Part shown: positions 26 through 17,355 of the stretch, in pieces
Layout of the letters: the number at the start of each line of letters is the position of its first letter
How positions within the stretch are numbered: position 1 is the stretch's first letter
DNA from: a virus
DNA: 22,912 nt
Strand: one strand, 5' to 3'
IMG/VR virus record: IMGVR_UViG_3300042905_003812
Coordinates: 1 to 22,912 of that record
Made by a program: the position numbers and the translations under genes
The notes under the pieces: model-generated
The model's database searches: none
What the model was told of the DNA's origin: nothing
What the model saw: the letters and a program-made list of their open reading frames with translations, nothing else

Positions 26-1027
26 ATGGCCACATCTTTAGCAGAAATTCGCGCTAAACTACAAGCGCAAGAGACACGCTCACAAGGCGGACAATCACAA
101 GGCGACAACGCCATCTATGCACACTGGAACATTCCAGAAGGCTCAAGCAGCAAAATCCGATTCCTACCAGACGCTAACACACAGAACTCATTCTTCTGGG
201 TTGAGCGACTGATGATTCGCTTGCCGTTTGCAGGCATCAAAGGACAAGCTGATAGCAAGCCAGTTGTTGTACAAGTACCCTGTGTAGAAATGTACGGCGA
301 CGCATGTCCTATTCTTGCAGAAGTTAGAACATGGTTCAAAGATCCAGGACTAGAAGAAATGGGTCGTAAGTATTGGAAGAAGAAGTCATATCTATTCCAA
401 GGTTTTGTAAGAGAGAATCCACTAGCGGATGACAAAACACCAGAGAATCCTATTCGTAGATTCGTTATTAGTCCCCAGATTTTTAATTTGATCAAGGCTG
501 CACTAATGGACCCAGAACTAGAAAGCATGCCTACTGATTACACCGCTGGATTAGATTTTACTGTTACCAAAACCTCAAAAGGTGGATATGCAGACTATTC
601 AACTAGTAAATGGAGTCGTAAAGAAACTGCACTGACTGCACAAGAACAAGCGGCCATTGACAGTTTTGGTCTTTACAATCTAACTGACTTTTTGCCCAAG
701 CGTCCAGGTGAAGTCGAACTAAAGGTTCTCAAAGAAATGTTTGAAGCGTCGGTTGATGGTCAAGCATACGATCCAGATCGTTGGAGCCAATACTACAAGC
801 CTAGCGGCTTCCAAGGTCGAGGTGGTGATGATGCAGCAGAATCCGCAACACCAGCACCAGTAACAAAAGCTGCACCTGCCCCAGTCCAATCGGCTGCACC
901 GTTTGATGCAGATGAAGAGGACGATGCACCAGTAGCAACTGCACCTGTGCAAGCTGCTGCTACCAAACCATCAAGTCAGCGAGCCGAGGACATTCTAGCA
1001 ATGATCCGTAATCGCAGTAAGCAATAA
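26..1027 (+). CDS. 32: gp32-like single-stranded DNA-binding protein
   Basis: 333 residues. Binds single-stranded DNA cooperatively in phage replication, recombination and repair, and partners UvsX/UvsY. The layout is that of T4 gp32: a basic N-terminal arm (residues 1-25), an OB-fold core (about 35-255) with aromatic and basic patches such as GRKYWKKKSYLFQGF (113-127), and a disordered tail rich in Ala, Pro and Asp/Glu (268-310, including DADEEDD) that in T4 contacts other replication proteins. T4 gp32 binds zinc with one His and three Cys; here only Cys86 and Cys94 are visible and the expected CPxC reads CPIL, so the site looks incomplete. It stands alone between its own Shine-Dalgarno and a strong terminator, so it is probably made at a higher level than uvsX. 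The identification rests on recalled family features and on the adjacent uvsX. Confidence 0.9.
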   Translation: MATSLAEIRAKLQAQETRSQGGQSQGDNAIYAHWNIPEGSSSKIRFLPDANTQNSFFWVERLMIRLPFAGIKGQADSKPVVVQVPCVEMYGDACPILAEVRTWFKDPGLEEMGRKYWKKKSYLFQGFVRENPLADDKTPENPIRRFVISPQIFNLIKAALMDPELESMPTDYTAGLDFTVTKTSKGGYADYSTSKWSRKETALTAQEQAAIDSFGLYNLTDFLPKRPGEVELKVLKEMFEASVDGQAYDPDRWSQYYKPSGFQGRGGDDAAESATPAPVTKAAPAPVQSAAPFDADEEDDAPVATAPVQAAATKPSSQRAEDILAMIRNRSKQ

Positions 1028-1055
1028 AAACAAGGGGGTAACCCCTTGTTTTTTT
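1026..1055 (+). terminator. Rho-independent terminator after gene 32
   Basis: A perfect inverted repeat AACAAGGGG (1029-1037), loop GTAA, CCCCTTGTT (1042-1050) is followed by a run of T (1049-1055). The flanking A and T tracts can extend the stem to 12 bp. It lies 0-30 nt after the gp32 stop codon and separates gp32 from uvsX. Confidence 0.93.
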
Positions 1056-1087
1056 CTTATAAAAAAATAATATCAAGGAATCTAATT

Positions 1088-2155
1088 ATGGCTAAACCAT
1101 TTGACGTATCAAAATTTCGTAAAAGCATTACAAAAAGTATTGACGGTATCTCCGTTGGATTTAACGACCCAACAGACTGGATCTCCACAAACAATTACGC
1201 TCTTAACTATCTTATTAGCGGGGATTTTAATAAGGGTATTCCAATGGGTAAGGTTACTGTATTTGCTGGAGAGTCTGGTGCGGGTAAAAGCTTTATCTGC
1301 TCAGGAAATCTTGTCAAAAACGCTCAAGAACAAGGTATATATGTTATTCTTATCGATACTGAAAACGCACTCGACGAAGCCTGGCTTCACGCACTTGGTG
1401 TCGATACTAATGAAAACAAGCTTCTCAAACTCAATATGGCTATGATTGACGATGTAGCTAAAATGATTACAGAGTTCGTTAAAGAGTACAAAACATTACC
1501 CGAAGACCAACGCCCCAAAGTCTTAATCGTGTTAGACAGTCTAGGTATGTTGTTAACACCAACCGATGTCAATCAGTTCGAAGCAGGTGATCTAAAAGGC
1601 GACATGGGTCGTAAGCCCAAAGCATTAACCGCATTGGTTCGCAACTGTGTTAACATGTTCGGTAGCTTGAACATCGGTTTAGTTGCTACTAACCATACAT
1701 ACGCAAGCCAAGACATGTTTGATCCAGATGACAAGATCTCGGGCGGACAAGGATTTATCTATGCAAGCTCGATCGTTGTTGCTATGCGTAAACTCAAACT
1801 CAAAGAAGATGAAGATGGCAACAAGATTTCAGAAGTAAAGGGCATTCGTGCAGCATGTAAGATTATGAAAACACGCTATGCCAAACCGTTTGAAAGTGTG
1901 CAGGTCAAGATTCCGTATGAGTCTGGCATGAATCCGTATTCGGGACTGGTTGATATGTTCGAAGGCAAAGGTTTGTTGCAGAAAGAAGGCAACAGTCTTA
2001 AATACACGCTAGCAGACGGTACAGTTATCAAACAGTTCCGTAAAGCATGGGAACGCAATGATGATGGTAGTTTGGATCGTGTAATGAAAGACTTTACTGC
2101 CAACCCACATAAAGATACCGCTGCTGTTCAACCAGAAGAGGAAACTGTCGAATGA
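1088..2155 (+). CDS. uvsX: UvsX-like RecA-family recombinase
   Basis: 355 residues. ATP-dependent strand-exchange protein that forms filaments on single-stranded DNA and drives recombination-dependent replication. Walker A GESGAGKS is at residues 61-68; Walker B LIVLD is at 146-150, followed by SLGML; TNHTY at about 201-205 matches the loop after the core strand in the UvsX/RecA family. The acidic C-terminus (PEEETVE) is typical. The open frame extends upstream to 1046 with non-ATG starts, but that would overlap the terminator; the ATG at 1088 has AAGGAA at 1075-1080 with 7 nt spacing and gives the usual MAKPFDV-type N-terminus. The stop overlaps the next ATG (ATGA). Confidence 0.93.
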   Translation: MAKPFDVSKFRKSITKSIDGISVGFNDPTDWISTNNYALNYLISGDFNKGIPMGKVTVFAGESGAGKSFICSGNLVKNAQEQGIYVILIDTENALDEAWLHALGVDTNENKLLKLNMAMIDDVAKMITEFVKEYKTLPEDQRPKVLIVLDSLGMLLTPTDVNQFEAGDLKGDMGRKPKALTALVRNCVNMFGSLNIGLVATNHTYASQDMFDPDDKISGGQGFIYASSIVVAMRKLKLKEDEDGNKISEVKGIRAACKIMKTRYAKPFESVQVKIPYESGMNPYSGLVDMFEGKGLLQKEGNSLKYTLADGTVIKQFRKAWERNDDGSLDRVMKDFTANPHKDTAAVQPEEETVE

Positions 2156-2373
2156 GCATTGATGTTGAAGTCTTAATCGAATCTTATATTACGCTTAAAG
2201 AATACATTCCTGCCAAAGAACGGCAAGCCGCTGCCGACAACTTGGTCAGTCTGCTAGTAGATAATCTGAGCGATAAAGAATTAAGGGAATTTGGTGGCAC
2301 TGATAGTTATACAAAACGTGCCATTGAGGAATATATCGACGACGAAGACGAAGAAATTGATTACGAAGACTGA
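2152..2373 (+). CDS. Small acidic protein of unknown function
   Basis: 73 residues, not recognised. It is predicted helical and strongly acidic, ending in a run of Asp/Glu (IDDEDEEIDYED). It starts inside the uvsX stop codon (ATGA) and its own TGA touches the next ATG (TGATG), so it should be translated together with uvsX and the following gene. The position between uvsX and a UvsY-like gene suggests a role in recombination or replication, but nothing in the sequence proves that. Confidence 0.75.
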   Translation: MSIDVEVLIESYITLKEYIPAKERQAAADNLVSLLVDNLSDKELREFGGTDSYTKRAIEEYIDDEDEEIDYED

Positions 2374-2825
2374 TGTGGTATAATCGTGTTGTTGCAGATC
2401 TGGGAGAAATTCCGGCCTTCATCAATTATTATGAAGGTGAACTCGTACAGGCAAAAACAGAAACATCTATACGAGGTAATGTTGAAAAGTCCGCTGCGAA
2501 TTTACCGGGTATTACAGAGCACAGATTTAACCAGCTACAGGAGATCGAAGCTGTACTTCAATATCTTAACATACAACTTCGCAAGATTAGACGACGGCAT
2601 TTTCAAAAGTACTTGGAATCTTATGCCCGAGCTCTTACCAGTCGCGACGCTGAGAAATATACAGATGGCGAGGACGAAGTCATTGACTTTGAGACTATCA
2701 TTAACGAAGTTGCTTTGCTTAGAAACAAATGGCTTGGAGTTATGAAAGGACTGGAAAGTAAAAACTTTATGCTTGGCCATGTGGTAAGATTAAGAACAGC
2801 CGGCATGGAAGATATTGCGGTATAA
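2373..2825 (+). CDS. UvsY-like recombination mediator candidate
   Basis: 150 residues, almost all helical, rich in basic and acidic residues. The C-terminal third (about 115-146) shows a Trp-Leu-Gly segment, then GLESKNFMLGHVVRLRTAG, which resembles by eye the end of T4 UvsY (a Gly-Leu/Asp pair, a Lys/Arg-Gly/Asn-Phe step, then an amphipathic helix with a conserved Arg). UvsY loads UvsX onto gp32-covered DNA, and this gene sits one small cistron after uvsX, close to gp32, which supports the idea. The match is weak and was made from memory, so an unrelated conserved T4-like phage protein remains possible. It overlaps both neighbours by one base. Confidence 0.5.
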   Translation: MWYNRVVADLGEIPAFINYYEGELVQAKTETSIRGNVEKSAANLPGITEHRFNQLQEIEAVLQYLNIQLRKIRRRHFQKYLESYARALTSRDAEKYTDGEDEVIDFETIINEVALLRNKWLGVMKGLESKNFMLGHVVRLRTAGMEDIAV

Positions 2826-3821: not shown

Positions 3822-4570
3822 ACATTGTGTTAGCAACTGGCGGTTTTGATCCTGTTCATTCGGGTCATATTGCCTATCTAAAAGCAGCAAGTACATTAGG
3901 CGACATGTTAATTGTAGGACTCAACAGCGACGAATGGCTTGAGCGTAAAAAAGGTCGTGCCTTTATGCCTTGGAATGAGCGTTTGTGTGTACTAAACAAC
4001 TTGTCAATGGTTGACGAAGTTTATACATTTGACGACGAAGATGGATCAGCAAGACATTTTATTCAACAGGTACGAGCTCATTATCCTGATGCCAGATTGA
4101 TATTTGCCAACGGCGGTGATCGCACCAAGGATAACATTCCTGAATTGTCAGAGTCAGCTGTAGAGTTTGTATTTGGAGTAGGCGGAGACAGTAAAAAAAA
4201 TAGCAGCAGCGATATATTACGGCGTTGGACCGCAATAGAAGTAGAAAGATGCTGGGGTTCCTACACTGTACTAAACGAGATACCCGGTGCCAAAGTTAAA
4301 ACATTGACTATTCGACCAGGTCAAACACTGAGCATGCAGCGTCATAAACATCGCAGCGAATATTGGATGGTTACCTCGGGCATGTGCATGATCAACATGG
4401 CCTTGCCCGGAGACATGAGCAAGCCACCTAAAATACTCGAAAAATACGACGAATGGCGTGTGCCTGTTAATGCCTGGCACCAACTTACCAATCCTTTTAC
4501 CAAACCTTGCACCATTATTGAAATACAATATGGCGAACAGTGTGTAGAGGATGATATTGAGAGGTTATAA
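3818..4570 (+). CDS. Cytidylyltransferase fused to a phosphomannose isomerase-type cupin
   Basis: 250 residues with two domains. Residues 1-137 are a nucleotidyltransferase of the TagD/HldE-C type: GGFDPVHSGHI carries the HxGH signature (14-17), and NSSSDILRR (128-136) stands at the place of the ISSTxxR motif. This domain would activate a sugar- or polyol-phosphate with CTP or ATP. Residues about 143-250 match the type II mannose-6-phosphate isomerase domain that usually ends GDP-mannose pyrophosphorylases: CWGSY, RPGQTLSMQRHKHRSEYW, the Gly of VTSG, and the closing GEQCVEDDIERL. Likely metal ligands are Gln174, His176, Glu181 and His221. The join is unusual because the partner of this cupin is normally a GDP-mannose pyrophosphorylase. 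The C-terminus overlaps a minus-strand gene by 6 nt. Confidence 0.87.
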   Translation: MNIVLATGGFDPVHSGHIAYLKAASTLGDMLIVGLNSDEWLERKKGRAFMPWNERLCVLNNLSMVDEVYTFDDEDGSARHFIQQVRAHYPDARLIFANGGDRTKDNIPELSESAVEFVFGVGGDSKKNSSSDILRRWTAIEVERCWGSYTVLNEIPGAKVKTLTIRPGQTLSMQRHKHRSEYWMVTSGMCMINMALPGDMSKPPKILEKYDEWRVPVNAWHQLTNPFTKPCTIIEIQYGEQCVEDDIERL

Positions 4571-4814: not shown

Positions 4815-5993
4815 ATGCGTGATTTGATTAACATACTTACTGAAGCAGCAACTAAAGCAGATATCCAGCAAATACTGGCCCAAAACGGCTACACAGATTT
4901 GAAAATTAACGGCAATTTAATTGCTGTTTTAGTACAAGTTCCTGATGGACAAATTAAGGAAGCTTTTAGACACAAAGTTCTACAAGATCTAGTAGAAATT
5001 ATCAATGCAGCCGACCCTGATGTGCAGGCAAGATATAGTCCTTATCAACCTAGTAGCATTGGACATGTTGAATTTTGGCAAAGCAAGGTTAAAATTGTTG
5101 TAAAAGACAAAGGCATTCAAGGCGATAAAAGTGCCGGTGTTGCCAACGAAATAGAACTTGCTGGTATAATACAAAGTGTAATTGAAAAGTATGGATCAGC
5201 GAATATAACATTTGTTGATCACAGAGGTAAATCGTTAACTATTAACAATTGCAATCAAGTTGACATTTCAGGGCGAGATGTTAAGGGCAGAAAAAAAGCT
5301 GATGTGGTTCTAGTTAGTCCGGATAGAAATCTTCCTATATCAATCAAGAAATTGAATGCCGAAGCATGGGAAAGTGCAGATACCATGTTTGGAAAAAAAG
5401 CTAGAGCTATAATTGATAATCTAAGTGATGCAGGAATAGTTAAACTAAACAAAACAGAAAAATCACCAGACTGGGCACCTATATTTGAACTAAGCAAAGA
5501 AATTGTTGTTGAGCCTACAGAAGAAGAAGCAATGGCGGCAATTTTTGGTAGCGATTTGAATCCCAAAGGCGGCATTGTTATACAAACTTTCCGACCTGAG
5601 CATTTTGTACAAGATGGTAATCAAGTGAACGTAGAATGCCATGCAGTTATTACCAACAAAGCAGAAATACCCGAAAGCCATTTAATGGTATGGCTGATAC
5701 GCAACGACTCTAGCAGAAACAGCACCGAATTAGGAATTCCTGGAATAAGAATACAGGGAGTCACATTAAGTAGAGGAATTGGTAAAACAGGTAAAAAAAA
5801 TCCAATATTGGTTGACCAATACGGTAATGTAGTAGAACGTAATTATGATCCAAACGATGAACAAGATCAAGAAGTAACATCCAAACAACTCAAAAATTTT
5901 GATCCAGAAAAAACTCGAATCAACATTAAACATCCAGGTAGAAAGCCAGTATCAAGAGATGTAGACACCAGTCCTCGTAAAAAACGCGATTAA
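4815..5993 (+). CDS. Uncharacterised protein with a possible PD-(D/E)xK-like core
   Basis: 392 residues. Not recognised as a named family. The middle part has an order of residues seen in PD-(D/E)xK nucleases: a Glu-bearing helix ANEIELAGII (110-119), a strand with Asp (KADVVLV, Asp163), and a strand PISIKK with Lys178, followed by a helix. If real, the acidic residue two before the Lys is replaced by Ser176. The C-terminal third (about 250-392) is beta-rich, with GIPGIRIQGV, and ends in a basic tail (SPRKKRD) that could bind nucleic acid or the phage particle. It lacks a clear ribosome binding site and ends just before the promoter at 5999. A structural or tail-associated role is an alternative. 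Confidence 0.6.
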   Translation: MRDLINILTEAATKADIQQILAQNGYTDLKINGNLIAVLVQVPDGQIKEAFRHKVLQDLVEIINAADPDVQARYSPYQPSSIGHVEFWQSKVKIVVKDKGIQGDKSAGVANEIELAGIIQSVIEKYGSANITFVDHRGKSLTINNCNQVDISGRDVKGRKKADVVLVSPDRNLPISIKKLNAEAWESADTMFGKKARAIIDNLSDAGIVKLNKTEKSPDWAPIFELSKEIVVEPTEEEAMAAIFGSDLNPKGGIVIQTFRPEHFVQDGNQVNVECHAVITNKAEIPESHLMVWLIRNDSSRNSTELGIPGIRIQGVTLSRGIGKTGKKNPILVDQYGNVVERNYDPNDEQDQEVTSKQLKNFDPEKTRINIKHPGRKPVSRDVDTSPRKKRD

Positions 5994-6812: not shown

Positions 6813-7299
6813 TGTAGCCAAAGGCCAAAATAGTTATGATGCCACCCTTGATAATTCATTGGTGGCATTTTTTAATAAAAATATTACGCCTTATGCAACA
6901 GAAGCAGGTGGTCCCAAGTTTGATTTAATTCCTGTTGAAAAACAAAAAGACATCATGGTCAATGTTGCTCGAATGCATGCCGAGCAAGAGTATAATCGTA
7001 TCATGGATCTGGTAAATGTTCTTACCAAGCAGGCAGCAGAATTAAAACGTAGATTAGAAATAACAGATGCCGTACATGCCGCAAAATATGATTTTCAAAT
7101 CTATCACGGACAATGTTATTGGTTGTGTTTTGACAACAAGATTGATAACACTAGATTAACACATCAAGGACCCAGTGACTGGACAACTGGTCCTCCAGAT
7201 CATTATACCTATATTGCCAAGGTAAAATGGTTGGGTGATTATACCTGGATTGAAGTTCCTACCACACAAAGTTCTGACGATAGTATTCAACAATCCTAG
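6793..7299 (+). CDS. DUF2452 family protein
   Basis: 168 residues. The whole length follows the DUF2452 pattern as recalled: an N-terminal segment ending ITPYATEAGGPKF, a central long helix with KQAAELKRRLEI, then a beta part with CYWLCF, GPSDW, YTYIAKVKWLGDYTW. The family occurs in bacteria and T4-like phages and has no established function. The start overlaps the membrane-protein gene by 20 nt; the sequence just upstream (ACAATGGCGAAG) has only a weak ribosome binding site, so translation is probably coupled. The last 41 nt overlap the convergent minus-strand dehydratase gene. Confidence 0.82.
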   Translation: MAKKKSNVAKGQNSYDATLDNSLVAFFNKNITPYATEAGGPKFDLIPVEKQKDIMVNVARMHAEQEYNRIMDLVNVLTKQAAELKRRLEITDAVHAAKYDFQIYHGQCYWLCFDNKIDNTRLTHQGPSDWTTGPPDHYTYIAKVKWLGDYTWIEVPTTQSSDDSIQQS

Positions 7300-8200
7300 C
7301 AATCTCTGTATCAAAGTTGGCCTGTGGGCGCCAACCCAGCTGTCTTAGCTTACTATCATCAATGGCATATCTCACATCCTGTCCAGGACGAGCCAAATCT
7401 GTTATGTGTTGCTCATAGTCAAACTGGATGCCAAATTCGTTAAATATTTTATTGACCACATTCAAGTTGGAATCTTCGTAATTGCCTGAGATGTTGAAGA
7501 TTTCGTTCTTGACATTGCTTTGAATAATGGTGTAAACAGCTTGAGCTGTATCATTTATGTGTAGCCATGTTCTGCGAGGTTGACCGCGGTCATGCAAGTC
7601 AATCTTGCGACCTAGTTGTAAATACTTGACGGTTTTTGGAATTAGTTTTTCCACATACTGACCAATTCCGTAATTGTTGGTTGGTCGAACTATCACATAT
7701 GGAATGTTGAATGTTCGCGCCCAAGCTTGCACCAGCATGTCGGCTGCGGCCTTGGTTGCCGAATACGGATTACTGGGTTTCAATAAATCTGTTTCCACAT
7801 GCGCTCCATTCACAATGTCACCGTATACTTCGTCGGTGCTGAAATGTATCAAAGTAGGCATATTGAATCTGCTTTTTTGTTGAATAAGGCCGAGCAAATG
7901 ATGCACACCGTTTATGTTGCTTTTTAAAAAAACATCTGATCCAACAATGCTGTTATCTACATGTGTTTCTGCTGCGGTGTTAACCACATAGTCACAGTCG
8001 ACTAGTCTTTCGAGGTCATTAATATCGCTTTTGATGTATTTAAAGCGAGAATTTTGTTTAAATTCATCCAAGAACTCACGGTTGCTGGCATAAGTCTCAC
8101 AATCTACACCTAGCACATAATGTCCTTGATCTAAAAGTCTTCTAGTTACGGCTGCGCCAATGAGCCCCAGGCAACCGGTTACGTATACAATTTTTGTCAT
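7259..8200 (-). CDS. RmlB-like NDP-sugar 4,6-dehydratase
   Basis: 313 residues, extended short-chain dehydrogenase/reductase. It would convert an NDP-hexose to the 4-keto-6-deoxy sugar, the entry point to deoxysugars. Seen: nucleotide-binding TGCLGLIG (8-15), FSTDEVYGD with the dehydratase Thr-Asp-Glu triad (121-123), YSATK with Tyr145 and Lys149, and RPTNNYG, which is diagnostic of RmlB-type enzymes. The end (RPGQDVRYAID, LGWRPQ) also fits RmlB. The nucleotide (dTDP, CDP or UDP) is not certain. It is the last gene of the minus-strand operon, joined by ATGA to the epimerase before it. No terminator is seen after it; its end runs 41 nt into the convergent DUF2452 gene. Confidence 0.9.
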   Translation of the reverse strand: MTKIVYVTGCLGLIGAAVTRRLLDQGHYVLGVDCETYASNREFLDEFKQNSRFKYIKSDINDLERLVDCDYVVNTAAETHVDNSIVGSDVFLKSNINGVHHLLGLIQQKSRFNMPTLIHFSTDEVYGDIVNGAHVETDLLKPSNPYSATKAAADMLVQAWARTFNIPYVIVRPTNNYGIGQYVEKLIPKTVKYLQLGRKIDLHDRGQPRRTWLHINDTAQAVYTIIQSNVKNEIFNISGNYEDSNLNVVNKIFNEFGIQFDYEQHITDLARPGQDVRYAIDDSKLRQLGWRPQANFDTEIARIVEYYRQNFVW

Positions 8201-8991
8201 AGGTAGTTTTTAAATCCGTTTTCTAATCCACTTAATTTTATATTCAATTTGGCCAACTTGTCTCCATTTCCTGTGTAGTTTTTATCACCAACTGACACTA
8301 CTTGTATTGGAGTGGTTTGATTATGAATGTTGGCAAATTTTTCTATTGTTTGGCTTATCAATAATTTGTTTTGATATACACAGTTTATATCTTTAAAAGC
8401 AATGTTGGAAGTAGTTGCCACATGTGCTACAACAGCACATAAATCTTGTATGCTGAAAAAATCAAAATATCTATCGTGTGTAATAGTAAAAGAGTCTGTG
8501 CAAGATAAAAACCGCGGAAACACTCGAGTGGCCAATTCGCCTGACCCAAAACAATTAAAAATTCTCAGTGTATAAAAATTGTCAGTGTCATAGCACAACC
8601 TACTTTTGATATTCTGTCCAAATCCGTAACTGTCTTTGGGCATACGATTGTATATTTCTTCCTCATCAATATTATTGATATCCAAGGTTCGATCAAATTC
8701 TGCACCACTGCCTAAATTGATCATTTTACCAAACCAGTTCCGGTTATTGTACAAGTTCATAAACAATCCAAGATTGTTATGAGTGTCGTTGATCAAAACT
8801 GGATCTGACATTCTAGCAGCAGCATTAATTATAACATCAAACTTGTTGGTCTTTAAAAAATCTCTTGTTTGTTGATTGTCTAATAAATTAATCGAGCGGC
8901 TAGTGACAGGAGAAACATCAAACTTGGTAGATAAAAAAGAAACAAGAGAACTGCCCACAAAGCCATTGCTTCCAACTATTGCAATCTTCAT
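8197..8991 (-). CDS. NAD-dependent epimerase/reductase-like protein with atypical active site
   Basis: 264 residues from the ATG at 8991, which overlaps the previous stop as ATGA; the open frame runs slightly further upstream but that start is less likely. Extended SDR fold: MKIAIVGSNGFVGSS holds GxxGxxG, INAAARMSD follows, and LGSGAEF supplies the catalytic Ser. The usual YxxxK reads SYGFGQ: Tyr122 is present but the Lys position is Gln126 (a Lys lies at 129). It is therefore either an altered catalyst or no longer a redox enzyme. Its relatives are dTDP-4-dehydrorhamnose reductase and GDP-fucose synthase-like proteins. A decayed copy of its first 85 or so codons lies at 9781-10030. Confidence 0.82.
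   Translation of the reverse strand: MKIAIVGSNGFVGSSLVSFLSTKFDVSPVTSRSINLLDNQQTRDFLKTNKFDVIINAAARMSDPVLINDTHNNLGLFMNLYNNRNWFGKMINLGSGAEFDRTLDINNIDEEEIYNRMPKDSYGFGQNIKSRLCYDTDNFYTLRIFNCFGSGELATRVFPRFLSCTDSFTITHDRYFDFFSIQDLCAVVAHVATTSNIAFKDINCVYQNKLLISQTIEKFANIHNQTTPIQVVSVGDKNYTGNGDKLAKLNIKLSGLENGFKNYL
8743..8778. repeat. Direct repeat, copy 1 (in the intact epimerase gene)
   Basis: 36 bp starting GTTATTGTACAAG, matching 9787-9822 at 35 of 36 positions (T/C difference at 8767/9811). It encodes LGLFMNLYNN-type residues (about 75-84) of the intact epimerase. It marks the best-preserved part of the duplication. Confidence 0.92.
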
Positions 8992-9776
8992 CGAGCCTGT
9001 CCTAAAACGCAAAAAACATTGCCGTAATGATTTCCACCAGTGAATTTTCTTACAATATCAAAATTGTGCAAATCAAATAAAAATTCTAGATTTTGTTGAC
9101 TAAAAATGTTTATGTGTTCGTGAAACTTTCGACCATCCATGCTTTGTGCTGTTCTTTCGTTTGGCACTTCAACGTATAAAAATTTTTTTAATTTTAGCAT
9201 GTTGCGCATTTTTTCCATATGATAATTGATATCGCTTACATGTTCAAGAACATGACTACAAATAATCAAATCCATTGGTTCACAAATATCATCTTTGCCA
9301 ATATAGGTAATTTTTTTGTTGTGTTCTCTAATTTCTGTTTCAAGTACATAACATCGTGCATGAGCAAATTGATCAGGAATCCCTTCACCGTGGTTACCGC
9401 CGTAGTCCAGTAACGAATCGACTGTGTTTTCGTTGGCAAAATCTTTTACAAATTCGTATATTTCTTTTTTTCTGTTTTCTAAAATACCTTGTTCTTGTTG
9501 GTATTCGGCATGACTCTGAACACTCTGCCCCTCATATGCAATACGATGGGTCAAATATTCCCCGGACATGTATTCTTTATAATAACGAGATTCTTCCTCA
9601 AGATTAAATCTTAAATTGGTGCCATGATAATCACATATGGGACAGTGAATTGACCAGCATTGAGTATCACTTCCGGATTTTCCAGTCATACGGTCAACCA
9701 CAAATGGAAACATTTCTCCCTTAAATTTACTGACTTGATTAGAGCCGCAAACTATGCAAGAGTCAATTTGTTCCAT
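8988..9776 (-). CDS. Zinc-ribbon SAM-dependent methyltransferase
   Basis: 262 residues. The N-terminus has four likely zinc ligands in Cys pairs: Cys7/Cys10 (CIVC) and Cys45/Cys48 (CPIC), with Cys40 nearby. A class I methyltransferase domain follows: LLDYGGNHGEG (122-132) as motif I, ICSHVLEHV as the motif IV region, and YVEVPNE. Family members with this layout usually methylate nucleotide-sugars or related small molecules. The ATG at 9776 follows AGGA at a good distance, and this ribosome binding site lies inside the decayed epimerase copy. The stop overlaps the next start (ATGA). The substrate is unknown. Confidence 0.85.
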   Translation of the reverse strand: MEQIDSCIVCGSNQVSKFKGEMFPFVVDRMTGKSGSDTQCWSIHCPICDYHGTNLRFNLEEESRYYKEYMSGEYLTHRIAYEGQSVQSHAEYQQEQGILENRKKEIYEFVKDFANENTVDSLLDYGGNHGEGIPDQFAHARCYVLETEIREHNKKITYIGKDDICEPMDLIICSHVLEHVSDINYHMEKMRNMLKLKKFLYVEVPNERTAQSMDGRKFHEHINIFSQQNLEFLFDLHNFDIVRKFTGGNHYGNVFCVLGQAR

Positions 9777-9780
9777 TTAA

Positions 9781-10030
9781 ATTCCTGTTATTGTACAAGT
9801 TCATAAACAACCCAAGATTGTTTCTAGTATCGTGCAATGCATGATCATCCTGCATCGTTGCAGCAGCATTGATAACAATATTTATTTTCTTTTAACCAAT
9901 GTAAAACTGCACCTGGGTCGAGCAAATTTATAGTTTGCCTAGTTGCCGGCACCACTTGATGATAATTTGAAAAATATTGACTTATTTTTGATCCAACAAA
10001 ACCGTTAGAACCAAGGACCGCAATTTTCAT
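9781..10030 (-). pseudogene. Truncated and frameshifted duplicate of the epimerase
   Basis: Starting at ATG 10030 the frame reads MKIAVLGSNGFVGSK and INLLDPGAVLHWLKENK, clearly parallel to the intact epimerase (MKIAIVGSNGFVGSS and INLLDNQQ). Near 9885-9895 the frame breaks; the next frame continues as IVINAAATMQDDHALHD then RNNLGLFMNLYNNRN, matching the intact protein to about residue 85. Similarity then ends at the methyltransferase start. In the starting frame, translation runs out after 61 residues as a Cys-rich non-homologous tail. The start overlaps the kinase stop (ATGA), so this was once a normal cistron of the operon. The missing C-terminal two thirds carried the active site, so the copy cannot be functional. 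Confidence 0.92.
9787..9822. repeat. Direct repeat, copy 2 (in the epimerase remnant)
   Basis: 36 bp partner of 8743-8778 with a single mismatch, in the same orientation. Similarity continues towards 10030 at a lower level, and stops abruptly within about 10 nt on the other side, at the start of the methyltransferase gene. Confidence 0.92.
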
Positions 10031-11295
10031 TTTGTATTACCTAACAAGTGTAAATTGTATAGACCATCAAATGTTTCTTCTTTGAAACGTGCACCTGATG
10101 ATTGATAGTTCCTATTAGGATCTAAATTCCTTAATACATCTAATAGAAATTTACTTTTATTTGCTACCCCTCCGGATACTATTACTTCTTTTTGTTCTTT
10201 ATTGGGATCTAGAATCCCAATAGCTTCAATGTATTGAGTTGCCCAGGACCTGGCGATACAACCAATAATAAATTCTAAATCTGTTTTTTCTTCTCTCAAT
10301 CTAATATAACCACTAGACGAGCTAAATTTCCAGGCCGCATCAAATACATTTAAGTCTACGCAATTTTCAGAATTGAGCACATCGTATGCTGTCAGCTCAT
10401 CCCATTTGCTCCAAAATAAATTTTTATCAGAAGAAAAATTGCTTATAAATCCAGCAAATAAATTCAATGCTCGACCACAAGGAATATGAGTAATAACTCT
10501 AATATAATTATTAAGGTACGGTCTAACTTCGAATCCCTCTCTATTATCTTTACAAATTACTTGAGAACCTGTTCCTAAATTAATTACTGCATGTTGATTT
10601 AACCCCGAGCCCAACACAGCAGCTTGGAGATCCCCAATACCACCAAAAATTTTAATTCCGTTGAATGTTGCAATGGGCTGTACTGGATCAAAAGATATTT
10701 CATTAAATGATATATTATTATAAGGGCACAATTCTTGTGACCATTCTTTTTTTCTTAAATCTATAAGTCCAGAGGATGTAGCTAATGAAAAATCAGATCT
10801 AATATCTTGGCATTGCATAGAATAAAGCAATGCATCAACTAAAGTACAAAATTTATATTTTTTATTAGAGTCGACTTTATTTTTAATTGATAAAAAAGGC
10901 AATCCTGGCCGTAATTTTATTCCTGTTAAATTAAAGAATTGATTTGAATATTTTAGATAAGGATCAATTTTTACACTATTGTCCTTCCAACTTACATACG
11001 GTAAGATTTTGTTTGTTTCTAAATCTAATAAGCTGAACCCATGCATTTCACTACAAATGTATATAGAATCAATATCCGTGTGAACTTGTAATAGTTTTAG
11101 AACAGTATTTGAAAATGCACTATGATATCTATCAAATGAGATTTGATAAGAGTCTAATTCTAAGATATCTGGAGTTTGGCTAGGGGAAATTTCTTCTCTG
11201 GCATCAATTACATTTTTTGTAATTTTGTCCACAACTATAGATTTGATTCTAGAGGCCCCAAAATCTGCTAATAGTATTTTATTTTTTAAAGACAT
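10027..11295 (-). CDS. FGGY-family carbohydrate kinase, sedoheptulokinase-like
   Basis: 422 residues from the ATG at 11295 (an ATG at 11298 is equally possible; no clear Shine-Dalgarno, so coupling to the cyclase, which overlaps by 17 nt, is likely). ATP-dependent phosphorylation of a sugar. Seen: N-terminal phosphate loop ADFGASRIKS (10-19), EMHGF (83-87), the LPYVSWKDNS sugar-binding segment, GGIGDLQAAVLG with the probable base Asp222, INLGTGSQV (238-246) and SGGVANKS in the second ATPase half. The GDLQ plus INLGTGSQ pair resembles sedoheptulokinase more than xylulokinase or glycerol kinase. Paired with a sugar-phosphate cyclase it could supply sedoheptulose 7-phosphate or phosphorylate the cyclic product. 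The gene is very AT-rich. Confidence 0.83.
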   Translation of the reverse strand: MSLKNKILLADFGASRIKSIVVDKITKNVIDAREEISPSQTPDILELDSYQISFDRYHSAFSNTVLKLLQVHTDIDSIYICSEMHGFSLLDLETNKILPYVSWKDNSVKIDPYLKYSNQFFNLTGIKLRPGLPFLSIKNKVDSNKKYKFCTLVDALLYSMQCQDIRSDFSLATSSGLIDLRKKEWSQELCPYNNISFNEISFDPVQPIATFNGIKIFGGIGDLQAAVLGSGLNQHAVINLGTGSQVICKDNREGFEVRPYLNNYIRVITHIPCGRALNLFAGFISNFSSDKNLFWSKWDELTAYDVLNSENCVDLNVFDAAWKFSSSSGYIRLREEKTDLEFIIGCIARSWATQYIEAIGILDPNKEQKEVIVSGGVANKSKFLLDVLRNLDPNRNYQSSGARFKEETFDGLYNLHLLGNTK

Positions 11296-12421
11296 CATTA
11301 AAAGCTTTTGATATTTCTTCTTGTCCTGTTGCATCGAGAGGAAAATCAATAAACTTCATATCGCCAATTTTTTCAATTATTGATAATTTAAGGATGTTTC
11401 CTACAGCTTTCTTGTCACTTTTTAAATAATCTAATATTGAATTAGTGTTATACATGCTTAAAAAAGTTTTAGTTCTATTCGACAGTAACTTTTCTCCAAC
11501 GGCTTTTATTCTGGTATAATCTTCATATGAAAGTAGTCCTCTATCTAAAGACATTTTATTTTCAATTAAGATTCCAACTGTTACTCCTTGTCCGTGGGGA
11601 ATGGCGTAACTACTTGCAGCTTCTAAAGCATGTCCTATACTGTGTCCATAGTTCATTGATCTACGGATATCTAATTCAAATTCATCGTGTTCAACTACTA
11701 CTTTTTTTACATTCAATGAGTGTTTCATTAATTCTTTAATTGTTTCTAAATTTCCCGCAGCCAATTGGTCAATATTTTTTTCTAAGATGTTGAAAGTTTC
11801 TACACCTCCAGTGATCATTAATCGTAAAATTTCCCCCGCACCGCTGTAAATGTCTTCGTTGTTTAACGATAAAAGAAATTCTTCATTAATGATTACTTCT
11901 CTTGGGGCACTGAATAAACCAAGAACATTTTTGTTATCCTTGAAATTTACAGCGGTTTTTCCGCCAAGACAACTATCTGTTTGACATAACAGTGTAGTTG
12001 GAATCAGTTTCCACGGTATTCCTCTTTTATACATAGCAGCACTAAAGGCGCCCAAGTCTTGAATAATGCCGCCGCCTATAACAAATAACATACTTCCTCG
12101 GTTGGCATTATGTGCAGTTAGAAACTCACAAATTTTTAGAACATTTTCGATATTTTTATTTTTTTCAAGTGCTTCTATTTCGTAAATTGGAAGATCTTCA
12201 AAATCTAAACTTGATAAAATTTTTTTCTTTAAGTTTTTATCGATTAAAATTAACGGACTGGTTTCTTTTTTAATTAATTCAATCATCCAAGAAAAGCTCT
12301 TACCAGTTACAAATTTAACCAGGTATGGTCTTGGATTTGATTGAACATTAATTATATCTATTTGCGAGTTGTAATTATTTTTAAACTCTGTATTTTGTAT
12401 TAAAAAATTTAAAGTATTCAT
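11279..12421 (-). CDS. Sugar-phosphate cyclase (3-dehydroquinate synthase superfamily)
   Basis: 380 residues. NAD- and metal-dependent cyclisation of a C7 (or C6) sugar phosphate. Seen: GGGIIQD (116-122), YKRGIPW, PTTLLCQTDS with Asp149, GGKTAVNF with Lys155, KN (164-165), GEILR with Glu197, Lys240, DEFE, RRSMNYGHSIGHALE with Asn257, His260 and His264, PHG with His276, and KSDKK near the end. Glu197, His260 and His276 match the three metal ligands. The position of DHQS Lys197 (AEVIK) is Arg200 here. This, and neighbours that are kinase and SDR rather than aromatic-pathway genes, argue for a secondary cyclase (2-epi-5-epi-valiolone synthase-like or another) over true DHQS. It starts in an ATGA junction with the SDR. 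Confidence 0.86.
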   Translation of the reverse strand: MNTLNFLIQNTEFKNNYNSQIDIINVQSNPRPYLVKFVTGKSFSWMIELIKKETSPLILIDKNLKKKILSSLDFEDLPIYEIEALEKNKNIENVLKICEFLTAHNANRGSMLFVIGGGIIQDLGAFSAAMYKRGIPWKLIPTTLLCQTDSCLGGKTAVNFKDNKNVLGLFSAPREVIINEEFLLSLNNEDIYSGAGEILRLMITGGVETFNILEKNIDQLAAGNLETIKELMKHSLNVKKVVVEHDEFELDIRRSMNYGHSIGHALEAASSYAIPHGQGVTVGILIENKMSLDRGLLSYEDYTRIKAVGEKLLSNRTKTFLSMYNTNSILDYLKSDKKAVGNILKLSIIEKIGDMKFIDFPLDATGQEEISKAFNDVFKK

Positions 12422-13086
12422 TTTTGAAATCCACCAATTGAAAAACCACCATCAACGACAATATCTTGACCATTGATGTAAGTGTTATCGTCGTTTACTA
12501 AAAAATTAACAACCTTAGCAATTTCTTCCGGTTTACCTAATCTTCGTTGCGGAATGCCTTGTACAAGTTCGTTAATTTTTTCAGGGCTATTATTTTTTGT
12601 TGTCATCTTAGTATTAATGTAACCAGGAGATACAGCATTGGTTAAAATATTGTATTTGGCTAGTTCTATAGCTAATGTACGAACTGCACCAAGTAATCCA
12701 TGTTTTGAAATAACATACGGCAGTCTGCCCTTTCTAGCTAGAAAACCATACAAAGATGAAATAACTACAATTCTTCCATAGCTTTGTTTTTTCCAGTTTG
12801 GTAATAAGGACTTAACTACATGAAGAAATCCAATTAAATTTGTATCAATGCCTAATTCAATTTCATGCAGTTCTTTGTCTTCGAAGTTGCCTACTACATT
12901 TAAGCCTGCAGAATGAATTAGAATATCGAAATTTTTATTTTTTAAAAACTCGTCGATTGAACTTTTATTTGATAAATCTATATCTTTACTACCAACGGAT
13001 GTTACAATAAGTCCTTTGCTGGAAAGTTCGTTGTGTATTGCTTGTCCTATGTCTCCGGTCCCGCCTAATATTAAAACAGTTTTCAT
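12418..13086 (-). CDS. Short-chain dehydrogenase/reductase
   Basis: 222 residues, classical SDR. Cofactor motif GGTGDIGQ (8-15), IHSAG (57-61, for the usual NNAG), catalytic Ser110/Ser111, Tyr124 and Lys128 (YVISK), then NAVSPGYINTKM and a C-terminal NGQDIVVDGG. It would oxidise or reduce a sugar or cyclitol hydroxyl. The lack of Arg in the early turn (LGGTGDIG, then VTSVGSKDIDL) leaves the NAD/NADP choice open. It begins in a TAATG junction with the ThDP enzyme and ends in ATGA with the cyclase. In known C7-cyclitol pathways an oxidoreductase acts after cyclase and kinase, which fits this order. Confidence 0.9.
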   Translation of the reverse strand: MKTVLILGGTGDIGQAIHNELSSKGLIVTSVGSKDIDLSNKSSIDEFLKNKNFDILIHSAGLNVVGNFEDKELHEIELGIDTNLIGFLHVVKSLLPNWKKQSYGRIVVISSLYGFLARKGRLPYVISKHGLLGAVRTLAIELAKYNILTNAVSPGYINTKMTTKNNSPEKINELVQGIPQRRLGKPEEIAKVVNFLVNDDNTYINGQDIVVDGGFSIGGFQK

Positions 13087-14924
13087 TAGTCTATTCTATT
13101 TTTTGCCATTTCTTCGTCAGAAAGAAATGGACTCATGTTTTCTAAACTAGGTGCTAACATTGTTCCGTCATCTAATTTTTTTGCAGTCAATTTAGGAGAA
13201 AAATTTTGTTCGGGATCTAGCATTACTTCAATTAATACAGGATCATTGTTAATAATAGCATATTGTATAGTATTACTTCTCCATTGGTCAATATTTTCAA
13301 CTTTATATGATTTAAGACCAAACGCATGTGCCAATTTAACGAAGTTAGGTAAGGTAACGCCGTCACTAGGGCAAGTACCAAACACATTATCGGGGAAATA
13401 ATTTTGTTGCGTTTGTTTAATACTTAGATAGCCGTTATTGTTTAATACAATAATTTTAATTGGAAGTTTATAACCTAAAACTGTTTGCAGTTCCTGTATA
13501 TTCATCATTAAACTTCCATCGCCAGCTAAACAAATAACTCGCTGCTTATTTCTTGCTAAACAAGCACCAATTGATGCAGGCAAATCATACCCCATACTAG
13601 CATTGCCAGAATTTGTAAATAGCCGTTGACCAGATTTTATTTTAGCAGTTTGAAAGCTAATAACACAGGCACTTCCGTTTCCAGTTATTATGCAATCATC
13701 CTCGGCAAGATTTTTTAGTAATTCATCTACAAACAAATAAGGATTAAGTTGATTTTCTTTATGATGATATTCTGGTAATACAACAGGATAACGATTTACT
13801 CGTTCTTTGCACCAATTCAAATAATCAATATGATCATTTGGTGTTACATAATTAGACAATCTTCCTAAAAATTTAGGAATAAATTTTTTTAAGTCGGCAA
13901 CTATCTTGTAGTCTGTGTGAAGTGTTGGTTTATTAAGTTCCGTTTGATCAATATCCACGTGAATCTTATAAGCACGACTAGCAAAGTTTTTATGATTATA
14001 ACTTACTTGTCGTACATTTAATCTGCTACCTAGAACAATCAAAAGATCTGAATTTTGAACAGTAAAGTTTCCTGCTCTGTCTCCTACAGTTCCCGGACGA
14101 CCTGCATAGCATTCATTAAAATTTGGTAAAGCATCGTGAGCATTCCATCCTGTTACTGTAGGTATTCCCAAAGATGAAACTAGTTTTAGAAAATTTTCGT
14201 ATTGATTACTAAGCCGTATTCCGGCACCCGCAAATAATACAGGTCTTTTAGATTTTTTCAGCTGATCAAGAATGTGGTCGAGATGTATCTCTAGATTATT
14301 GTATGTTTGTTGTAATTCTAATCTAGTGTTCGCTGTCACAGCCGGATCCAGTGCCAGGGTGGTCAAATTGCCGTCCCACTCTTTAATTAGTTCGGGGGCA
14401 ATTTTTGCACTTTGCATGTCAATAGGAATGTCGATCCAGACTGGCCCCGGTCTACCAGTGGCAGCTAAGAAAATGGCCTTGTCCATAACTTCACGAATAT
14501 CTTTTGGATCTTGTAGTGTAACCGCATACTTGACAACAGGACGAGCCATACTTACGATATCTACTTCTTGATCGCCTAGCTGTCGCATAGGAATATCGTA
14601 ATTTCGTAAGTAGGTTTCGTTTTTAACTTGCCCACTAATGACCAACATACCGCAACTGTCAACATATGCACCAAACACACCATTGAGTGCATTGATACCT
14701 CCTGGTCCTGTGGTAACATTAAGAACGCACAGTTGATTGTTGATGCGATAGTAACTTTCTGCTGCAATTGCCGCACCTTGTTCGTGATGAAAGCAAACTG
14801 GAGTCATATCCGGATGTCTACTAAAAGCATCGTTGAGATGCATGGCGCCACCTCCGGTCACTAAAAAAGTGTGCCTGGCGCCTGCTTTGACACACCTTTG
14901 TGCTACGTAATCAGCTAATCTCAT
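13086..14924 (-). CDS. Acetolactate synthase-like thiamine diphosphate enzyme
   Basis: 612 residues, the size of the IlvB/acetohydroxyacid synthase family with all three domains. Pyr domain: GGGAMHLNDAF and HHEQGAA with the activating Glu48. Central domain: about 205-350, ending in the VDIDQTELNK-type segment. PP domain: GDGSLMMNIQELQ (468-480) and LNNNG (494-498), the GDG-x26-NN thiamine diphosphate motif. It would decarboxylate a 2-oxo acid and add the carbanion to an acceptor. In a sugar cluster with an RfbH-type 3-dehydrase the closest known parallel is YerE in yersiniose synthesis, which adds a two-carbon branch to a keto sugar. A decarboxylase role is possible. No small regulatory subunit is present, arguing against amino-acid synthesis. 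Confidence 0.85.
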   Translation of the reverse strand: MRLADYVAQRCVKAGARHTFLVTGGGAMHLNDAFSRHPDMTPVCFHHEQGAAIAAESYYRINNQLCVLNVTTGPGGINALNGVFGAYVDSCGMLVISGQVKNETYLRNYDIPMRQLGDQEVDIVSMARPVVKYAVTLQDPKDIREVMDKAIFLAATGRPGPVWIDIPIDMQSAKIAPELIKEWDGNLTTLALDPAVTANTRLELQQTYNNLEIHLDHILDQLKKSKRPVLFAGAGIRLSNQYENFLKLVSSLGIPTVTGWNAHDALPNFNECYAGRPGTVGDRAGNFTVQNSDLLIVLGSRLNVRQVSYNHKNFASRAYKIHVDIDQTELNKPTLHTDYKIVADLKKFIPKFLGRLSNYVTPNDHIDYLNWCKERVNRYPVVLPEYHHKENQLNPYLFVDELLKNLAEDDCIITGNGSACVISFQTAKIKSGQRLFTNSGNASMGYDLPASIGACLARNKQRVICLAGDGSLMMNIQELQTVLGYKLPIKIIVLNNNGYLSIKQTQQNYFPDNVFGTCPSDGVTLPNFVKLAHAFGLKSYKVENIDQWRSNTIQYAIINNDPVLIEVMLDPEQNFSPKLTAKKLDDGTMLAPSLENMSPFLSDEEMAKNRID

Positions 14925-16027
14925 AGTCCGCGATTTTTAATTAAGTTTTTGAGTGCAGGGTTAGTTGCATACGGACCATCGATGTGATCAATAGTCAAAG
15001 CTTCATCGGCCTTGATTGCTTGTCTTAGTGTTTCGCCGTTCATGATTTCTCTACAGCTGAGTTGACCTTTGCGTAACGGAATGGCCAAGTAAAAGTCTTT
15101 TTCAAAACTGTTCTTATGGATCTTATAACCTGGTTCAAGATCTCTACGTGCATAAGCACCTCTAACCAGTTGATCAAGATATTCAGTTTCTTTGCGACTG
15201 ATAACACGGCGTGTGTTTGTTCTACCGCCACACATTTCTACTGCTTTGTGATAGGCCTTGAACCAAGTATCACATTGTTCCGGCAATGAACAATAATTGC
15301 TTACTGGCACATTGTTGTAGTCAATGTCGATGTGTCTTTCCCATGTTCTGGCACCTTTGGCGTATGATATCAACATGCTGGATGACCAGTCGTGATATTC
15401 GTGTGTGCTTAATCCAATCACGTTGTCCTGATAGCGATTGCGTAGGTAATCAATTTGATCCAGTTCCAATTCGTTATCTTCACTGGGATACAAACTCACA
15501 CAGTGATTGATAGCCAAAGGAATATCTCTGTTGGCAAAGTATGTGACAATATCATCTAGGTCTTTTTCGCTTGCACCTCCACTACTAATAATAGTAGGGC
15601 GGCGTGTACTTGCAATCTTGCTAATCAATGGCCAATCATTCACATCACTACTTGCAATTTTGATAATTGGCATGTCAAACTCCAAACAGAGATCCACACT
15701 CTTTTCATCAAATGGTGTACTCATAGGAATACAACTCATATCTCGGATCTTGTTAACCATTACAGCAAAGTCATCTCTGCTTAATTTTGTAGCTTCTGTT
15801 TTTTTAATATAGCGATTGGCTTGGTCGCCTTTGAATTCAGGATGGATAAACTCATCCACGTCTCTAAATTGCAGTTTGATTGCTGCTTTCACATTGTTGA
15901 TGCGAGCCACACTACCGTGTTCATAAATGATTTTAAGGCCGCGTTCAACACTGCCCCAATGATTGTTTGCTAGTTCTAGTACAAAGAGATTTTCAAATAT
16001 CTCGTTGCCTTTTTTGCGATATGACAT
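14921..16027 (-). CDS. NeuB-family (sialic-acid-synthase-like) PEP-condensing enzyme
   Basis: 368 residues. The family condenses phosphoenolpyruvate with a sugar aldehyde to give a nonulosonic acid. Seen: LELANNHWGS (17-26) in place of IAEIGxNHNG, AIKLQ (49-53), MSTPFDEKS (102-110), IKIASSDVNDWPL (122-134), ISSGGAS, INHCVSLYPS (173-182), GLSTHE (205-210, for GYSDHT) and WERHID (229-234, for EKHFT). The C-terminus holds VRGAYARRDLEPG, a SAF/antifreeze-like segment. Substitutions in several motifs suggest a divergent subfamily with another acceptor than ManNAc or 6-deoxy-HexNAc. It ends in ATGA with the ThDP enzyme. The product sugar cannot be predicted. Confidence 0.84.
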   Translation of the reverse strand: MSYRKKGNEIFENLFVLELANNHWGSVERGLKIIYEHGSVARINNVKAAIKLQFRDVDEFIHPEFKGDQANRYIKKTEATKLSRDDFAVMVNKIRDMSCIPMSTPFDEKSVDLCLEFDMPIIKIASSDVNDWPLISKIASTRRPTIISSGGASEKDLDDIVTYFANRDIPLAINHCVSLYPSEDNELELDQIDYLRNRYQDNVIGLSTHEYHDWSSSMLISYAKGARTWERHIDIDYNNVPVSNYCSLPEQCDTWFKAYHKAVEMCGGRTNTRRVISRKETEYLDQLVRGAYARRDLEPGYKIHKNSFEKDFYLAIPLRKGQLSCREIMNGETLRQAIKADEALTIDHIDGPYATNPALKNLIKNRGL

Positions 16028-16035
16028 AATTTTCC

Positions 16036-17355
16036 TTAAATGAATAAACTCATAAAACCATCAACCTTTTCGCCTATGTAGGCAATTTGTTCTGGTGTAA
16101 TTACTGGACTGGTGCCATGGAAATAGGTGTGCGTCATGGCATGTGTTGCATTCGGGAAATCATCTCTGGCTCTTTTAGGATCCATTAGGTGACTGTATGC
16201 TGGTTGCAACATTATGTTGCCGGCAAAGTACGGACGAGTTTGGATTAAGTTTTCTTCCAAGTAGTCTACAATGTCTGCGCGAGTGAATGGTGCGTCTTTG
16301 CGCACAGTTAGTGGGAAAGCGAACCAAGACGGATCTGATTTCGCTTGTGCCCGAGGCAAATGGAAAAATTCTTCGTACTTGGCATAAATGTTGAATAACA
16401 ATTGATAGTTGCGTCTACGCAGAGCATGGATCTCGGGCAGCTTCTTTAACTGTTGCATGCCCATGGCACATTGCAATTCAATTGGCTTTAGATTGTAGCC
16501 AATTTCGTCGTAAACATATTTGTGATCAAATATCTCACCTGGTAACTCTGGGATCCATTCTTGGAATCGCGTGCCGCAGGTGCCGCACTTTAATTTATTG
16601 GCTTCTGGTCCAACACAGTAACAACCACGCCCCCACTCACGGAAACTGCGAATGATTGTTTCTTGGTGGTAATCGTCGGTGGCCACAAAGCCACCTTCGC
16701 CCATGGTCATATGGTGTGCAGGATAGAAACTGCAACTGGCCATCAATCCAAATGAACCCAATGGTCTGCCATCGTATGTGCTACCTAGTGCATCACAGCA
16801 GTCTTCCAATAAAATCAATTTATATTTTTCAACCAGTTGCATTAGTTGATCCATGTTGGGTGGATTACCTAACACATGTGCAAATGTAATCACTCGGATA
16901 TCAGGATTGGATTCTAACACTTGCTCAACTTGATTCAAATCAAGATTCAGTGTATCTAATTCAATATCAACAAACACAGATTCAAATCCCACTTGCAGTG
17001 TGGGATTGAGGGTTGTAGGAAAGCCGGCAATTGGCATTAGTACCTTTGTGCCTTTAGGCAAATTATGACCGCGCTTGCTGGTCAGACTGGCCATCATTAA
17101 AAGATTGCTGGAACTGCCTGAGTTGGTCACAATGCCACCGCGTTTGCCAAACTGCTTGGGAAACTCGCGTTCAAATCGCAGGCTTTCGTCGCCCATAGCC
17201 AGCCAACCTTTGAGCAAGCTGGCTACACCGGCAACATATTCAGACGAGTCGTAATATGCTCCTGCATAGTTCACAAAGTCTTTGCCCGCAGTCCAAGTCT
17301 TAGCGGCTTGTTTTTGTTCGATGTGTTTTTTTACTAGATCTAATATTTCTTGCAT
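16036..17355 (-). CDS. RfbH-type PLP/[2Fe-2S] NDP-4-keto-6-deoxyhexose 3-dehydrase
   Basis: 439 residues, DegT/DnrJ/EryC1 fold. SFYPAHHMTMGEGG (209-222) puts His (214/215) where aminotransferases have the PLP-binding Lys, the mark of the 3-dehydrases (E1/RfbH/AscC). REWGRGC and later Cys residues give C187-x57-C245-x-C247-x9-C257, close to the iron-sulfur motif I recall for E1; DHKYVYDEIGYNLKP also fits RfbH. The enzyme removes the 3-OH of a CDP-4-keto-6-deoxyhexose, together with an E3 reductase that is not in the window. LLEDCCDALG and TNSGSSSNLL are PLP-site segments. It starts 1 nt after the preceding stop and ends 8 nt before the NeuB-like start. Confidence 0.93.
   Translation of the reverse strand: MQEILDLVKKHIEQKQAAKTWTAGKDFVNYAGAYYDSSEYVAGVASLLKGWLAMGDESLRFEREFPKQFGKRGGIVTNSGSSSNLLMMASLTSKRGHNLPKGTKVLMPIAGFPTTLNPTLQVGFESVFVDIELDTLNLDLNQVEQVLESNPDIRVITFAHVLGNPPNMDQLMQLVEKYKLILLEDCCDALGSTYDGRPLGSFGLMASCSFYPAHHMTMGEGGFVATDDYHQETIIRSFREWGRGCYCVGPEANKLKCGTCGTRFQEWIPELPGEIFDHKYVYDEIGYNLKPIELQCAMGMQQLKKLPEIHALRRRNYQLLFNIYAKYEEFFHLPRAQAKSDPSWFAFPLTVRKDAPFTRADIVDYLEENLIQTRPYFAGNIMLQPAYSHLMDPKRARDDFPNATHAMTHTYFHGTSPVITPEQIAYIGEKVDGFMSLFI

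Follow-up and report, generated by a model that had tools for sequence, protein, structure and literature searches.

In a 22,912-bp virus record from IMG/VR (IMGVR_UViG_3300042905_003812, positions 1 to 22,912; this whole stretch is called "the window" below), which we analysed from its sequence, three consecutive genes encode a short-chain dehydrogenase/reductase (SDR), a sugar-phosphate cyclase of the dehydroquinate synthase (DHQS) superfamily and an FGGY-family carbohydrate kinase. We propose, with a probability of roughly 60%, that this cassette forms an interchangeable extension to a C-branched nucleotide-sugar pathway of the YerE/ErwE type that would serve a surface glycan in a T4-related jumbo phage. 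Gene context supports well that the cassette belongs to a branched-sugar pathway, and its product is most likely a dideoxysugar with a carbocyclic branch, the ring being a prediction. Since close relatives keep the core of the pathway without the cassette, the latter would modify the product of that pathway.

The open reading frames (ORFs) of the SDR, cyclase and kinase genes are all intact, lie on the minus strand and contain no internal stop. The first encodes a classical SDR oxidoreductase of 222 amino acids (aa) (12418..13086; PF13561/PF00106, 140 bits for PF13561), 54% identical to the SDR of the related phage contig L005 and 37-44% identical to the SDRs of bacterial modules. The 380-aa cyclase (11279..12421) belongs to a TIGR04425-like clade and matches PF01761 (116 bits) and DHQS_C (PF24621, 105 bits), while the kinase (10027..11298; PF00370, 50 bits, above its cut-off) has an invariant GDxQ aspartate and an invariant N-terminal DxG motif. 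The open frame of the kinase extends to a TTG at 11349, but the start codon context favours an ATG at 11298 or 11295, one of which is probably the true start. These Pfam matches, together with predicted folds for the cyclase and the kinase, bear out the identities that a first-pass annotation of this DNA had given to the three proteins, and the kinase motifs GDLQ (residues 239-242) and INLGTGSQ (residues 256-263) that it had listed are present. It had also described three coupled genes: the coupling stands, through short overlaps, but not the unit of three, since a carboligase and a NeuB-type synthase gene directly precede the cassette. NeuB, carboligase, SDR, cyclase and kinase form one overlapping run, with overlaps of 4 nt (NeuB/carboligase), 1 nt (carboligase/SDR), 4 nt (SDR/cyclase) and about 20 nt (cyclase/corrected kinase start). 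The YerE-like carboligase, which is the commonest partner of the cyclase, had been overlooked.

This carboligase (13086..14924, minus strand) is a thiamine diphosphate (ThDP)-dependent enzyme with GDG...N and HHE motifs, whose best solved relative is 8rph (380 bits, compared to 234 bits for acetolactate synthase); for the bacterial carboligase homologue of locus L021 (Anaerovibrio sp. RM50), the corresponding scores are 407 and 218 bits. Structure 8rph is that of JanthE, a YerE-like enzyme that couples alpha-keto acids to ketones (PMC12188165). YerE itself makes yersiniose from CDP-3,6-dideoxy-4-ketoglucose and pyruvate, ErwE favours alpha-keto acids that bear a hydroxyl group, for instance 4-hydroxy-2-oxopentanoate, and a caryophyllose enzyme has a donor preference similar to that of ErwE (PMC12247030). 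By these matches, the window carboligase is YerE-like, and it is predicted to couple a ketone sugar with an alpha-keto acid. It is clustered with deoxy-ketosugar genes, an RfbH/E1 gene and a dehydratase gene being found in the same island. The RfbH/E1-type CDP-4-keto-6-deoxyglucose 3-dehydrase (16036..17355, minus strand) passes the cut-off of NF011936 (445 bits; cut-off 423) and matches 3bcx with 329 bits; the position of its pyridoxal phosphate-binding lysine is occupied by a histidine, SFYPAHHMTMGEGG, as in the E1 dehydrase 3bcx. The RmlB-like nucleoside diphosphate (NDP)-glucose 4,6-dehydratase (7259..8200, minus strand) scores 302 bits with TIGR01181, missing the cut-off of 365, and is kept in relatives.

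The third core gene encodes a divergent NeuB-type phosphoenolpyruvate-condensing synthase (14921..16027, minus strand; PF03102), which stays under the curated cut-offs for both PseI and NeuB, matches 3g8r with 194 bits and is kept beside the carboligase in related phage contigs. Since carboligase genes adjoin one of several different alpha-keto-acid makers, this NeuB is best read, from its gene context, as the predicted maker of a hydroxylated alpha-keto acid donor for the carboligase. In this position, the window and its relatives encode NeuB, rumen bacteria a 4-hydroxy-2-oxovalerate-aldolase-like HMGL protein and Gammaproteobacteria HpcH-like aldolases; further makers beside phage carboligases are ketopantoate hydroxymethyltransferase PanB (L006) and acetaldehyde dehydrogenase with a DmpG-type aldolase, DmpF-DmpG (L008, L010). 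The window thus has in common with the YerE, ErwE and JanthE pathways (yersiniose, erwiniose, caryophyllose) an E1-type 3-dehydrase, a YerE-like ThDP carboligase, an alpha-keto-acid donor and a surface-glycan setting, whereas it adds a sugar-phosphate cyclase, an FGGY kinase and an SDR, has a NeuB-type synthase as its likely donor maker and is phage-borne.

Other phage contigs carry YerE-like carboligases in different settings. In L006 (8324-12169), RfbH, a YerE-like carboligase and ketopantoate hydroxymethyltransferase are encoded in a row. The carboligases of L008 (9998-13601), L010 (7144-10744) and L011, the last adjoined by an aldolase, have the rare CDG motif that was described for JanthE (PMC12247030, PMC12188165), and we read the latter three loci as a predicted second phage-borne branched-sugar pathway.

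The exchangeable nature of the cassette is indicated by a comparison with IMG/VR relatives, which were found via scans with the carboligase, a cyclase alignment and NeuB, a scan with the cyclase sequence alone having given no match. The cassette is present in four phage contigs, namely the window, L005, L139 and the more distant L013; the cyclases of L005, L139 and L013 share 41-53% identity with that of the window and have open frames and a conserved active site. RfbH, NeuB and the carboligase are found without it in L004/L135, L133, L134, L136, L137 and L138 (NeuB 79-95% identical; L133 and L134 may be one phage). In these cassette-free phages, the slot that separates the carboligase from an NAD-dependent epimerase/reductase (8197..9012, minus strand, in the window; PF01370/PF04321; 48-53% in most phage relatives) contains an FkbM methyltransferase, other SDRs or nothing recognised. 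Residues 1-120 of the carboligase are 95-97% identical between the window and L004, which lacks the cassette, and identity is mostly 45-75% thereafter; the exchanged segment therefore starts inside the carboligase, most of which travels with the cassette. Judged from these sequences, the SDR-cyclase-kinase cassette is an exchangeable add-on to the core pathway. Beside its sugar island, L005 also encodes a fatty acid desaturase (5118-5870; PF00487), and it has a similar-looking ORF at 1370-2017.

The model of the window cyclase has the fold of the DHQS family (Foldseek E 5e-21). Its active site, previously described as full, is nearly so: 12 of the 13 DHQS catalytic and ligand residues are identical, and the exception, Lys197 of DHQS changed to Arg200, is common to the cyclases of the window, L005, L139 and L017. 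A quick tree of 62 sequences, supported by the Shimodaira-Hasegawa-like approximate likelihood ratio test (SH-aLRT) only and built without 2-deoxy-scyllo-inosose synthase (DOIS), places it on the DHQS side in its own clade of 17 members (SH-aLRT 99, long stem), with the L022 cyclase falling outside this clade. In sequence, the match to DOIS is weak (86 bits, compared to 142 for DHQS).

Loci of this clade, which were gathered by cyclase similarity and not by context, have a recurrent gene content. Twelve of 16 contain a carboligase homologue, 12 an SDR and 9 a kinase; RfbF, RfbG and RfbH-like proteins are encoded in 7, 6 and 7 of them, respectively, and 11 have a gene for an alpha-keto-acid maker (HMGL in 5, NeuB in 4, HpcH in 2). 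At the same threshold, none of these carboligases, SDRs, kinases, RfbF/G/H proteins or alpha-keto-acid makers was detected in a comparison set of 65 other DHQS-family loci, 41 of which exceed 15 kb. Of eight additional loci from a single bacterial class, five contain a carboligase together with HMGL and none contains an FGGY kinase of the window type. Related cassettes are found in bacterial glycan clusters of several phyla, with RfbF, RfbG and RfbH in bacterial clusters. Two gammaproteobacterial module clusters additionally encode a Rieske-domain protein (L014, 14749-15828; L016, 6480-7406), which may possibly carry out an extra oxidation of the sugar.

In the pathway that we propose, the NDP-glucose 4,6-dehydratase and the RfbH/E1 dehydrase would generate a 3,6-dideoxy-4-ketohexose, NeuB would supply a hydroxylated alpha-keto acid, and the YerE-like carboligase would decarboxylate this keto acid and transfer its acyl unit onto the ketone at C4, these three steps being supported by sequence. 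The FGGY kinase may then phosphorylate the terminal hydroxyl of the transferred polyhydroxy chain, after which the cyclase would act in a DHQS-like manner, by transient oxidation of the chain, elimination of phosphate and formation of a six-membered ring by aldol addition, with closure onto the ketone remaining after carboligation; the SDR would reduce or oxidise a carbonyl. The cyclase may act after carboligation or, alternatively, on a free ulosonic-acid phosphate. More tentatively, and at somewhat less than even odds, we suggest as a general scheme that a DHQS-family cyclase turns the acyl branch that a YerE-like carboligase has added to a nucleotide deoxysugar into a carbocycle, in bacterial glycan clusters and in a sugar-resetting cassette that is traded between jumbo phages. 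The literature that we searched described no pathway type with a DHQS-family cyclase acting on a YerE-like carboligase branch, and searches on polysaccharide-cluster cyclases, on phage DHQS genes and on YerE together with DHQS returned nothing relevant. The idea of a phage-borne route to a carbocyclic sugar, already put forward in the first-pass annotation, survives in so far as a joint action of sugar-phosphate cyclase, kinase and oxidoreductase in a phage-borne pathway is supported and a carbocyclic product is plausible, but not as a sedoheptulose 7-phosphate (S7P) cyclisation of the valiolone type. What the phage gains from this sugar is probably an altered host surface, as was proposed for other jumbo phages (PMC7824862), which might for instance protect against superinfection.

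Several observations weigh against this branched-sugar pathway. The window dehydratase scores as a dTDP-type and not as a CDP-type enzyme; the L013 kinase lacks part of its N-terminal domain; no FGGY kinase was detected beside the cyclase in the bacterial loci L014-L018 and L028 and in several Negativicutes loci; and L018 and L028 lack an adjacent carboligase. Moreover, Lys250 and Arg264, which we take to be the carboxylate ligands in DHQS structures, are retained in 25 of the 25 module enzymes examined, whereas S7P cyclases, which act on a substrate lacking a C1 carboxylate, do not keep them. This invariance indicates a carboxylate on the cyclase substrate, which carboligation would have removed, and the cyclase may therefore act on a free acid instead. 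If that was the case, a 3-deoxy-2-ulosonic acid made by NeuB or an aldolase and phosphorylated by the kinase would be converted into a dehydroquinate-like carbocyclic acid, a parallel glycan substituent reminiscent of aminoshikimate logic. The presence of an alpha-keto-acid maker in well-sampled carboligase-bearing module loci is also consistent with this possibility. We nevertheless consider it rather unlikely: in about five distinct relatives, NeuB and the carboligase operate with no such cyclase, and NeuB therefore serves the carboligase, while cyclisation of the acid would destroy the alpha-keto group that the carboligase requires. Concerning the L013 kinase itself (13372-14322), it is only 316 aa long, with much of the N-terminal domain gone and the GDxQ and GTGSQ motifs kept.

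It is improbable that the cyclase is a true DHQS that raises the aromatic amino acid supply of the host. Such a role would fit its nearly complete active site and the fact that DHQS enzymes are its nearest solved structures, but the aroB model TIGR01357 gives 256.7 bits and misses its cut-off of 305, and shikimate genes are absent from the island. Besides forming its own clade, the cyclase and its relatives have near-fixed residues, Gln121, Trp137, Cys151 and Gly196, within otherwise conserved DHQS motifs. Furthermore, of 11 bacterial genomes in which this clade is represented, 6 (G001, G005, G006, G007, G008 and G011) encode an AroB above the cut-off in addition to a separate clade member scoring higher with TIGR04425. 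The sub-cut-off aroB score and this coexistence lead us to reject a housekeeping AroB, in agreement with the earlier suspicion of a non-housekeeping enzyme: the window cyclase has the fold and active-site residues of AroB, whereas it differs by its clade, its subfamily residues and its glycan-cluster context and belongs to a group paralogous to AroB. The best-scoring NCBIfam model is TIGR04425 (312 bits, under its cut-off of 400), an AroB-related "putative sugar phosphate phospholyase, cyclizing" family that is a hypothetical equivalog without assigned function. Cyclase matches in cultured phages (27-34%) mostly resemble AroB of contaminating bacterial DNA and were not used.

A valiolone-type S7P cyclase, and thereby the C7-cyclitol route through a 2-epi-5-epi-valiolone synthase that the first-pass annotation had favoured, is very improbable. 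The window does resemble such systems in that a cyclase, a kinase and an oxidoreductase are adjacent, but the active-site residues, the clade and the kinase type differ. Known S7P cyclases (ValA 4p53, DDGS 5tpr and plasmid-borne relatives) display K250M, N268D or A, and H275P, with a variable R264, whereas the window cyclase has Lys250, Arg264, Asn268 and His275 as in DHQS; none of these three substitutions is found in the 24 other module cyclases examined, all of which keep Arg264. In the tree, the placement that had been suggested as a check puts the enzyme in its own clade, not inside true DHQS, but equally apart from the group of valiolone and gadusol synthases (EEVS/DDGS), which is split off by a branch with an SH-aLRT of 99. 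In the three S7P-cyclase neighbourhoods with a kinase that were fetched, this kinase is a ROK kinase and not an FGGY kinase. The active site, the tree and these neighbouring ROK kinases together lead us to reject a valiolone synthase. The "sedoheptulokinase-like" label of the window kinase gained no support either: its model folds as FGGY (Foldseek E 8e-19) and its catalytic Asp240 is invariant across eight kinases, but its nearest matches by fold and sequence are glycerol kinases and xylulokinases, with no sedoheptulokinase among the matches listed and none directly compared. Finally, degenerate or passenger genes without a current phage function, as the shortened L013 kinase and the sporadic distribution might suggest, are hardly credible given the open frames and conserved active sites of the diverged cyclases in the four phage contigs. 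As a separate observation, a DHQS-family protein on a Streptomyces microflavus plasmid (L096, 5779-6894), a further unassigned cyclase, has Arg264 changed to Ala and Lys356 lost, and sits on a long branch outside both the DHQS and the EEVS groups.

Bicyclic carbon-ring sugars of lipopolysaccharide (LPS) are known, such as bradyrhizose, for which the corresponding paper presents an eleven-gene cluster, names only a dehydratase and does not mention a cyclase. The module described here, with its carboligase, kinase, cyclase and reductase, is a defined candidate route to a carbocyclic surface sugar, and it offers a predicted role for cyclases that are currently annotated as AroB or placed in a family without function. 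Phages carry YerE-like carboligases and swap a single step of this pathway, an exchange by which a phage would be able to modify the sugar on its host's surface.

Concerning the phage itself, the sugar island is flanked by plus-strand replication genes (26..2825) encoding a gp32-like single-stranded DNA-binding protein (SSB), UvsX and a UvsY-like protein, identified by PHROG matches and by synteny with jumbo phages. UvsX is 67-69% identical to that of the jumbo phages Phosso, Atu_ph07, XbC2, CBB, GAP32 and Vibrio 2.275.O, and the SSB-UvsX-UvsY order is common to the window, Phosso and 2.275.O, in the last two of which a synteny comparison found no sugar island at this site. From this identity and gene order, the source of the window is assigned to a T4-related jumbo phage, so that the term "T4-like phage" used earlier is correct in a broad sense but not for a classical T4 phage. 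Sugar clusters of the LPS type in cyanophages and jumbo phages contain epimerases, cupins and glycosyltransferases (PMC7824862), and the window is similar to them in its phage-encoded sugar biosynthesis, whereas searches of the cultured phage collection found no such cyclase and no YerE-like carboligase close to that of the window. The sugar island also encodes a methyltransferase (8988..9776, minus strand; PF13489), and an HldE-like nucleotidyltransferase domain fused to a mannose-6-phosphate-isomerase-type cupin is found at 3818-4570 of the window and is kept in relatives.

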